From positions 1-38,761 of the forward strand of contig CAILUT010000003.1 in the NCBI GenBank assembly GCA_903837495.1: a stretch of 38,761 nt of DNA. The letters are read 5' to 3'. Within the stretch, counting starts at the first letter, position 1. Each line of letters starts with the position of its first letter. The notes under the pieces are model-generated. The model ran no database searches, was not told where the DNA came from, and worked only from the letters and a program-made list of their open reading frames with translations. Positions 1 through 38,166 of the stretch are shown in pieces. A program made the translations under genes and the position numbers. Source of the DNA: an uncultured Flavobacteriales bacterium (lineage in GTDB: Bacteria > Bacteroidota > Bacteroidia > CAIKAF01).

Positions 1-82
1 AAAGAGCGACGCGAGGAGCTCCTTTTGGGCCTTGCCCGCCCCGCCTTGCCCCGCGGATTAGCCCGGAAAGCCCGGCTGCCGC
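1..82 (-). repeat. Structured ~140-bp intergenic repeat, copy 1 (cut by window edge)
   Basis: This is the 5' part, read on the minus strand, of the repeat also found at 2489-2627, 29646-29786 and 33449-33588. Read on the minus strand it starts with GCGGCAG (82 to 76), continues with the shared CGGGCTTTC block, and reaches the apical loop motif GCTCCTCGCGTCGC at 19 to 6. The other half lies outside the window. It is GC-rich and non-coding. Confidence 0.7.
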
Positions 83-132
83 CCACCAAAACCAGAAAAG
101 CCAACTCGTATGCATAAGTAAACCGCTTTGCC

Positions 133-2452: not shown

Positions 2453-2488
2453 TTCGGGCTTTTCGTGATTTGAATGAGGTTTTTTTGT

Positions 2489-2627
2489 GCGGCAGCCGGG
2501 CTTTCTCCGGTAGTCCTCGGTTGCCGGTGGCTGGCCCAGCGGGTTTGCGGGGGCTCCTAACGTCGCCTCCGCACCACGCGGGCCAGGCACCGCCACCCTG
2601 TGGGCTACCCGGTTCAATCCCTGCCGC
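2489..2627 (+). repeat. Structured ~140-bp intergenic repeat, copy 2
   Basis: A complete copy bounded by the terminal inverted repeat GCGGCAG (2489-2495) and CTGCCGC (2621-2627). Inside, CCGGTAGTCC (2507-2516) can pair with GGGCTACCCGG (2602-2612), CTGGCCC with GGGCCAG, and TGCGG (2546-2550) with CCGCA (2569-2573). The apical loop holds the family motif GCTCCTAACGTCGC (2553-2566). The copy sits between two convergent genes, 36 bases past one stop codon and 17 past the other. Confidence 0.8.
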
Positions 2628-2644
2628 CAAACGAAAAGCCGCAT

Positions 2645-29538: not shown

Positions 29539-29645
29539 GGAAAAAGTTCAACAAAACCCCAAAGAATTGTTAAGTTCTCTATGTTAATAACTGATTTCGG
29601 GTTTAAAGAACTTGAATTTACTGGGATTTGTTTTGATTTTTAGGG

Positions 29646-29786
29646 GCGGCAAACGGGCTTTCAGGCTTAGTCCGCGGGGGCTGCCGGGCAGGCTAAGTAC
29701 CCAAAGTAGCTCCTAAAGTCGCTCTTTGGGTCCATACCCTGCTGCCGGAAGCCCCCTTGCGGGCTAAGCACTTCAATCCCTGCCGC
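29646..29786 (+). repeat. Structured ~140-bp intergenic repeat, copy 3
   Basis: A complete copy bounded by GCGGCA (29646-29651) and TGCCGC (29781-29786). GCTTAGTCCGC (29665-29675) pairs with GCGGGCTAAGC (29759-29769) apart from one G-T pair, GGGGGCT pairs with AGCCCCC, and CCCAAAG (29700-29706) pairs with CTTTGGG (29724-29730). The apical loop is GCTCCTAAAGTCGC (29709-29722). It lies 30 bases past the stop of the DUF4384-like gene. Confidence 0.85.
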
Positions 29787-29816
29787 GGCCGCATCAAAGC
29801 CTGGAGCCCTTAAAAT

Positions 29817-33394: not shown

Positions 33395-33448
33395 CGGAGT
33401 TGGTGCTTTAGATTCCTTTTGTTTGGTTTTAGTGTTTGAGGCGCCCGC

Positions 33449-33588
33449 GGGCGGGATTGAACACGGTAGCACGCACAGGTGCTAGGCCCTGCCCCGCGTG
33501 GCGCGGAGGCGACTTTAGGAGCCACCGCAAGCCCGCTGGGGCAGCGCCTAGCAACGGCGGACTACCGGTGAAAGCCCGGAACCCGCCC
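33449..33588 (-). repeat. Structured ~140-bp intergenic repeat, copy 4
   Basis: A complete copy on the minus strand, bounded by a 7-bp terminal stem (GGGCGGG 33449-33455 with CCCGCCC 33582-33588). The inner CGGTAG/CTACCG and GCTAGG/CCTAGC stems differ in sequence from the other copies but keep pairing. The apical loop, read on the minus strand, is GCTCCTAAAGTCGC (33522 to 33509). It lies between convergent genes, 7 bases past one stop codon and 54 past the other. Confidence 0.8.
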
Positions 33589-33595
33589 CAAAAAA

Positions 33596-36542: not shown

Positions 36543-36800
36543 GCCTGTGTGGAGCTGGTTCAGGGGATAAAAGTAGGAATAATTGAGGCATGGGGAGAGG
36601 GGGGAGCAAGGGAATTTAGGGCCATTGGAAGCCTTGGGTTCATGTTGCAAGTATGCTCAAAATTAAAATACTGTGTTGAATTTGTTTGCAAGGGGTTAGC
36701 CTCCAAATTTGGTGCGGGTTAGGGTTTCTGTAATGCGGGCAATAGAGTGCAGCTGATTAAGCTACTGCGGCATAACCATCGAGGCAATGCTACTCGCATT
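36543..36800. other. Intergenic stretch with no gene seen
   Basis: Between the surface protein start and the left IS remnant I find no convincing gene. The bases before the surface protein contain TACTTTTA-like -7 sequence, as before other genes here. The rest carries decayed, stop-rich sequence that continues from the transposase remnant. Confidence 0.5.
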
Positions 36801-36915
36801 GATTTTTGGGTTTTCGTTGGATAAATATCATAAATAAAAGTACCGTTTTGGAGGGGGAAATGGGCAATAAACAGCTTGAAATTTATTGGCTATTGAAATG
36901 TTTAGATGGGGGGGG
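36801..36915 (-). mobile_element. Remnant of IS1182-type element (left copy)
   Basis: This is almost the same sequence as 38036-38150, offset exactly 1,235 bases, with about five mismatches across the core. It holds an ATG (36831) with MIFIQRKPKNQ, like the MKFIQ start of IS1182-family transposases, then stops and frame loss. The right end is a run of eight G followed by CAGTGTGGCG, comparable to CAGTCTGACG in the other copy after an 8-base gap. Confidence 0.6.
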
Positions 36916-37029: not shown

Positions 37030-37323
37030 TTATTGCATCCTTTTTTTAATTTTTCCTTGGTATAGATCATAAATTGGGAATATCAAATCATAATCGTTCC
37101 AATTCAAATTCCCATCAATTATTTTAAATTCTTTGAACTTATTTTCGTCCAAATATTTTCGAATCGATGGATGATATGATGTTTCAAGAAATGATTTAAA
37201 ATCAACTAGCCTATCAATTCCATCATTAAAAATGATTTGAATGGAATAATCACCAATATATTCAGCCGACTTGATCGCTATCAAATCTGAACAATCTCTA
37301 TTGTATTCTTCAACTATTTTCAT
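37030..37323 (-). CDS. DUF2442 protein, likely antitoxin of the DUF4160 pair
   Basis: A 97-residue small protein matching the DUF2442 pattern (AEYIGDYSIQIIFNDG followed by VDFKSFL, then FKIIDGNLNWNDYDLIFPIYDLY). Such proteins occur with DUF4160 proteins as candidate type II toxin-antitoxin or accessory pairs; which of the two is the toxin is not certain. The start codon overlaps the DUF4160 stop (ATGA at 37320-37323). The pair is AT-rich, unlike the GC-richer genes to the left, and is flanked by transposase remnants, which suggests horizontal arrival. Confidence 0.82.
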   Translation of the reverse strand: MKIVEEYNRDCSDLIAIKSAEYIGDYSIQIIFNDGIDRLVDFKSFLETSYHPSIRKYLDENKFKEFKIIDGNLNWNDYDLIFPIYDLYQGKIKKRMQ

Positions 37324-37625
37324 TTGATGCGTTTTGTGATTTTTTCAAACTCAATATTTTTATGATACACAAAATAGTCAATCCATTTTTCGACTATTTT
37401 CTCTGAAAACTTCTCAAGGAATACTTCAAAGTCTTTCAACTTACTTCCTGTTAAAGGATTTAAACCTCTTACTGGTTTGATTTTGATTTCAACAATCTTT
37501 CCTTCAACAATGTAGAACTCAGCCTTACTTTCACATCCATTATATTTTGCGTGGACATGAATTGGTTCATGCTCATTTGAATAGAAAAAGATAAGTATAC
37601 CAAGGTATTCAAAGATTTTCGGCAT
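37320..37625 (-). CDS. DUF4160 protein
   Basis: A 101-residue small protein of the DUF4160 family, recognisable by the opening MPKIFEYLGILIFFYSNEH followed by EPIHVHAKY, then EFYIVEGKI and the KDFEVFLEK segment. It is first of a two-gene unit with the DUF2442 gene (4-base overlap). A -7 element TACATTTG is at 37642-37649, 16 bases before the ATG. Base composition is AT-rich. The role as toxin or antitoxin is inferred from the pairing only. Confidence 0.85.
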   Translation of the reverse strand: MPKIFEYLGILIFFYSNEHEPIHVHAKYNGCESKAEFYIVEGKIVEIKIKPVRGLNPLTGSKLKDFEVFLEKFSEKIVEKWIDYFVYHKNIEFEKITKRIK

Positions 37626-37879: not shown

Positions 37880-38166
37880 CCCAATGCCTTTAGGGGCGTG
37901 TGCCGGCCGGGCATTTTCCTCGTACTGGGATTTAAGTCCAAGTTCAGAAAGGTTCAGGCTATCTACAAAGAGATCAATAAGGCGCACCTCATTGTCGGTA
38001 TCGACATGCTTATTACAGGCAATACATCTCCCACTGATTTCGGGTTTTTCTTTGGATAAATTTCATAAATAAAAGTACCGTTTTGGAGGGGGAAATGGGC
38101 AATAAACAGCTTGCAATTTATTGGCAATTGAAATGTTTAGACGGGGGGGGTTATTAGACAGTCTGA
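37880..38166 (-). mobile_element. Remnant of IS1182-family transposase with element end (right copy)
   Basis: The minus strand holds the N-terminal part of an IS1182-type transposase: ATG at 38066 with MKFIQRKTRNQ, a frame change, then IDLFVDSLNLSELG and ENARPAHAPK, both family hallmarks. It breaks off near 37880, so most of the gene is missing. Upstream is the element end (38067-38166) with an eight-G run and TTATTAGACAGTCTGACG. It cannot encode an active enzyme. The part 38036-38150 is a direct repeat of 36801-36915. Confidence 0.75.

Follow-up and report, generated by a model that had tools for sequence, protein, structure and literature searches.

A long Flavo-1-type hairpin repeat of an uncultured Flavobacteriales bacterium resembles mobile DNA long retained at gene 3' ends

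The repeat present in four copies in the window (the whole 38,761-nt stretch of DNA that was analysed) is, as judged from sequence and pairing and when read on the opposite strand, a long, GC-rich and divergent branch of Flavo-1 (RF01705). It behaves like old, carefully kept mobile DNA more than like ordinary small RNA. We favour, with moderate confidence, a non-autonomous hairpin element that was spread by an enzyme and then kept at gene 3' ends. The best reading is of an element that works like REP/BIME sequences without being one of them.

A preliminary description of the window had claimed four copies, and all four were located by R1, a covariance model made from 28 genome copies (the E-values of our home-made models R1 and R2 are rough). 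The features of the window are as follows:

1 to 86, minus strand: copy 1 (R1, 35.5 bits, E = 1.3e-4), its 3' end lost at the contig start
2480 to 2486, plus strand: T-tract directly 5' of copy 2, read from the sequence
2487 to 2627, plus strand in the R1 sense (minus in the Flavo-1 sense): hairpin unit of copy 2 (R1, 153 bits)
2497 to 2505, plus strand: CGGGCTTTC, 5' half of the foot platform of copy 2 (GAAAGCCCG in the Flavo-1 sense), near-invariant in the genus
2552 to 2567, plus strand: GGCTCCTAACGTCGCC, apical platform of copy 2 (invariant columns of alignment A2, loop variants counted)
2613 to 2621, plus strand: TTCAATCCC, 3' half of the foot platform of copy 2 (GGGATTGAA in the Flavo-1 sense)
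29644 to 29786, plus strand: hairpin unit of copy 3 (R1, 115 bits, match 29642-29792; folds)
33446 to 33589, minus strand: hairpin unit of copy 4 (R1, 152 bits, match 33441-33590)
33590 to 33595, minus strand: T-tract directly 5' of copy 4 (an A-run on the plus strand), read from the sequence

The R1 match to copy 2 covers 2485-2633 (+) and the folded unit 2487-2627. Copy 4 (33446-33589) is oriented opposite to the copies at 2487 and 29644, a point on which the preliminary description was silent. The terminal blocks that it had recognised, CGGGCTTTC and TTCAATCCC, oppose each other near the hairpin foot; its 6-7 bp terminal inverted repeat corresponds to the foot helix, and its shared apical motif to the apical block GGCTCCTAAMGTCGCC. 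The apical loop of copy 1 (1-86) was divergent on inspection of the sequence.

The window also contains an unrelated 134-bp direct repeat (36782-36915 and 38017-38150, 90% identical, 1,235 bp apart). Between the two repeats, on the minus strand (37030-37625), lie a DUF4160 and a DUF2442 gene, which may form a toxin-antitoxin cassette.

The element is a unit of 141-144 bp (approximately 143 bp) that folds into a single long rod. Both strands of the window copies fold far beyond shuffled sequence, as RNA (z from -4.8 to -7.4, with 0 of 200 shuffles as good) and as DNA (z from -4.7 to -9.4); in copy 2 the values for the two strands are -5.3 and -4.8 as RNA and -5.0 and -4.7 as DNA. Folding energies alone give no decision on strand or molecule. 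Two conserved non-Watson-Crick platforms are found on the rod, one near the foot and one at the apex. In the Flavo-1 sense, the foot platform is GGGANNGA opposite GANNGCCC, with purine-rich mismatches, and the apical platform is GGC-GA-C[NNNN]G-GA-GCC with the loops UUUA, CUUG, UUCA and GUUA (GGC-GA-C[GTTA]G-GA-GCC in copy 2). The helices between the platforms vary in sequence yet covary. Covarying stems, which the preliminary description had proposed to look for with a covariance model, were evident in the alignment of the 28 genome copies: 40 of the 48 consensus pairs show two-sided compensatory changes, pair cells are satisfied in 93.8% (77% in shuffles) and the covariation score is 0.41 (0.12 in shuffles), the copies being non-independent observations. 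The consensus structure stands out against shuffles and slid partners on every measure. G-T mismatches are twofold more frequent than A-C mismatches in the R1 sense (251 vs. 122, again in non-independent copies), and one G-T pair is conserved. As to the active strand, the G-T excess (R1 sense) and the GA platforms (Flavo-1 sense) disagree. In genome G056, the relatives (L068, L246, L250 and L080) are compact (106 nt) and have a constant frame, with an inner 15-bp stem that is unrelated from copy to copy and almost perfectly paired.

The repeat had been said to match nothing known. This holds at the level of Rfam thresholds: no family was reported for the window, relaxed thresholds gave nothing useful with window-type copies, and RF01705 had no member at its gathering threshold (42 bits) either in the window or among five same-genus genomes. 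It does not hold beyond them, as the repeat joins Flavo-1 as a divergent branch, a link reached only via distant relatives of the window copies. Distant relatives found by R1 match RF01705 below threshold (37.7, 32.3 and 27.8 bits), and a copy in the bacterium's own genome (L217:7395-7534) does so at 28.9 bits; the matches of L079 and of this own-genome copy lie on the strand opposite to R1. R2, a model of 30 copies from several lineages, trimmed to the arms and set in the Flavo-1 sense, recovered 7 of 10 loci detected by RF01705 (E from 4e-8 to 0.005); L264 reached only 0.41, and L257 and L261, with large inner insertions, were not reported. The shared arm core is GGG-A-NN-GA opposite GA-N'N'-G-CCC, in which the NN/N'N' step is UU/AA, UG/CA, UA/UA, CA/UG or CC/GG and the outer pairs switch between G-C and C-G. 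Core cells are paired in 99.3%, vs. 73% in shuffles (six lineages), and intermediate copies connect the window repeats with Flavo-1.

The window branch shares with Flavo-1 (Weinberg et al. 2010, PMC2864571) the foot core (GGGATNGAAGCGG... opposite ...GCGGANAGCCC), the covarying 2-bp step between GA mismatches, the A-rich 3' flank, the many copies per genome and the occurrence in Bacteroidia. It differs in its length (approximately 143 nt with a longer GC-rich stem, compared to the 76 positions of the Rfam model), in a second conserved platform at the apex, in its sub-threshold scores and in looking like a mobile DNA unit, whereas the Rfam type is 'Gene; sRNA'. A Flavo-1 label without function has already been published (PMC2864571), and the family is among the most abundant Rfam sRNA families, its function unassigned (PMC9029176). 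The long form shares its genomes with short, sub-threshold Flavo-1-like elements of 63-69 nt (G000:C1:23189-23257, G000:C23:11699-11761 and G005:C3:110193-110255), which precede a second GC hairpin and an A-run.

Many copies genome-wide had been predicted from the density in the window, and this was borne out: R1 gave at least 150 matches in the own genome (2.51 Mb), in which there are at least 200 distinct copy sites. The stretch-by-stretch scan covered about half of this genome and found 165 copies in 1.32 Mb, approximately one per 8 kb there. Allowing one mismatch, TCCTAAMGTCGC has 123 matches in the own genome, compared to 38 for the reversed control. Contigs C13, C24, C35, C40, C44 and C55 and the window itself start within a copy or no more than about 130 bases from one; this indicates that the repeats break the assembly and that copies are probably more numerous than counted. 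A search in related Bacteroidota, also proposed beforehand, found all five same-genus genomes examined to be copy-rich, and repeated matches in the more distant genomes G014, G055 and G056. A literature search for such repeats in Bacteroidetes found none.

Some copies are nearly identical (97-99%) in flanks that bear no relation to each other. The similarity ends at GGGCGG and CCGC, which delimits a moving unit of approximately 143 bp. The unit GGGCGG...CCGC has been copied as a block to unrelated sites, where a T-rich, C-poor tract immediately precedes it (65-70% T and 2-4% C just upstream of 190 copies). A young copy (L113:3850-4150, own contig C31) is flanked by a direct repeat of about 45 bp, GTGGGATTGCAGAGGCAGC.CATGTGCTGTCTTTACATGGGCGG, which itself includes the Flavo-1-like GGGATTGCAG.

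Placement was analysed for 256 intergenic copies in three genomes, using simple ORF calling. Convergent gaps hold 34% of the copies (14% of the gaps without copies are convergent) and divergent gaps 12.5% (25% in the background). In 65% the gene upstream has the same orientation as the element, with a median distance of 21-22 nt from its stop codon to the element. All of the close doublets (12/12) are tail-to-tail, and several are orthologues of each other. Preference for T-tracts could alone explain the position behind genes, so that we infer, rather than observe, a role at 3' ends. The intrinsic terminator was rejected as an identity, the T-tract being 5' of the hairpin and A-rich sequence 3' of it. 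Separate intrinsic terminators may precede the element (e.g. L107 and L114), which indicates that the element itself is not the usual terminator. For replication-strand bias there was a local hint in GC skew, and the whole-locus test was non-significant in every gene-context class.

Flanks served to match orthologous sites of the own genome and of G005 (approximately 80% identical). The sites were filled in 40 of 43 and 36 of 38 cases, with the same orientation in 75 of 76. Among the five 'empty' sites no clean empty site was read: two retain traces (a partial internal deletion in L228, a divergent copy in L167), L118 holds a different palindrome, and divergence made L198/L176 and L189/L223 unreadable. 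At L118 (2629-2784, own contig C46), several copies of the palindrome TAGAGACGCAAAATTTTGCGTCTC start right at the stop codon, and the G005 counterpart carries a Flavo-1-type copy. Element and orthologue had a median identity of 0.91; the 60 bp on either side reached 0.75 and 0.69, and comparison with random copies gave 0.65, indicating that each site keeps its own sequence. At 30 of 36 sites the flanks have diverged more than the element. In the window, copy 4 is 94% identical to its G005 orthologue inside the element and 66-76% in the flanks, and the site of copy 2 is occupied in both G005 and G002. A minority of sites, those at window 2487 and 29644 among them, have had a large part of the element replaced by a sequence that differs but still pairs; in copy 3, aligned with G005 and G002, the outer arms agree with the G005 orthologue and the inner half differs. 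Such swaps suggest that copies have undergone conversion with one another. Among 37 pairs of similar orthologues, stems changed on both sides five times as often as expected (60 double changes vs. 12.2), and uncompensated single changes in stems are also frequent (72). Hairpin-templated correction or inter-copy conversion could mimic part of this covariation.

These processes are central to the most serious rival, which we consider rather unlikely: purely selfish hairpin DNA that inserts into T-tracts, whose position behind genes is coincidental, and that is retained because deletion is rare and conserved by hairpin-templated correction or conversion without any host use. The discrete mobile unit with its young copies, the T-tract target and the segments exchanged at some orthologous sites all agree with it. 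Against it stand the site-specific sequence (0.91 vs. 0.65) and the slower change than in the flanks, since conversion would tend to erase site identity.

We hold it quite improbable that the repeats are a dispersed structured ncRNA family, as the Rfam label implies, whose transcribed copies act as sRNAs or cis-regulatory RNAs. Strong covariation, the non-Watson-Crick platforms and the Rfam type 'Gene; sRNA' speak for this, as does the twofold excess of G-T over A-C in the R1 sense, which is expected if one single strand is selected. However, there are 200 copies in one genome, in both orientations to genes, promoter sides are depleted, and no promoter-like conservation was seen upstream of the copies. 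Flavo-1 matches in F. psychrophilum are sense or antisense with no pattern, many of them outside transcripts (PMC9723704), which also argues against a dedicated RNA.

The preliminary description had offered either such an RNA or a REP/BIME-like element moved by a RAYT transposase. The dispersed, multi-copy, structured and intergenic character that it had claimed is confirmed by the R1 genome matches, the covariation and the placement between genes; the RAYT fails on both enzyme and tag. Y1_Tnp (PF01797), which it had proposed to look for, had no match in the own genome (G000) or in four other copy-rich genomes (G005, G014, G024 and G272). The 143-bp unit starts with GGGCGG and has no conserved GTAG/CGTC tag at its foot; an internal GTAG pairs with CTAC, and other copies have GTTG or CTAC-containing forms in its place. 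A REP-like element moved by Y1/RAYT does fit the high copy number, the intergenic hairpins and the inverted doublets, but this reading is contradicted for the own genome and is very improbable overall, although a RAYT may once have been present and since been lost. Slightly less credible still is SINE-like spread by reverse transcription, in which the A-rich, G-poor tail (Flavo-1 sense) beside the insertion point could prime on the T-tract: no reverse transcriptase (PF00078) was found in the own genome, G005, G002, G014, G012 or G056, and no target duplication was seen by eye around young copies. Nor did a recurrent neighbour gene stand out: comparing 635 adjacent ORFs all-against-all put at most 8 in any group.

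REP/BIME/REPIN sequences with their RAYTs (PMC2817692, PMC3733652, PMC3116915) resemble the element in behaviour: both occur as hundreds of hairpins between and behind genes, are enriched in convergent gaps, form inverted doublets and spread non-autonomously. REP sequences are 20-40 bp long with a GTAG/CGTC tag, whereas the window element is 143 bp, tagless and without a Y1 transposase, and its orthologous sites are almost always filled. REP/BIME hairpins are reported to protect transcript ends or block read-through.

Integron attC sites conserve structure while the stem sequence varies, and are located behind genes, as is the window element. The latter is dispersed among ordinary genes and lies in no cassette arrays. 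Identity with attC was rejected, since the RYYYAAC/GTTRRRY end boxes are absent by inspection.

Under the favoured reading of an enzyme-spread hairpin kept at gene ends, a trans-acting protein would recognise the platforms, and the same protein would have brought the element to T-tracts in the form of folded single-stranded or cruciform DNA. Once placed, copies long keep site and orientation and change less than the adjoining DNA, as observed. They would be kept for the very stable hairpin behind the stop codon, above all between convergent genes, where it may protect transcript ends or block read-through whichever strand is transcribed. The cellular effect would most likely be, by analogy with BIMEs, on gene 3' ends in both directions. 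More tentatively, and with less than even confidence, the whole of Flavo-1 may consist not of RNA genes but of hairpin DNA elements across Bacteroidia that were brought onto T-tracts behind genes by an undiscovered enzyme, one that reads hairpins and is related neither to Y1/RAYT nor to reverse transcriptases, and that were then retained as gene-end elements acting in both directions.

Entire lineages, with hundreds of copies, escape the Rfam Flavo-1 model. In the own genome, from which Y1 and reverse transcriptase were excluded, both usual suspects for moving such repeats are lacking. For a long, hitherto unrecognised branch of Flavo-1, the mobile unit is now defined and a target is known; its copies are placed consistently and have long stayed where they are.
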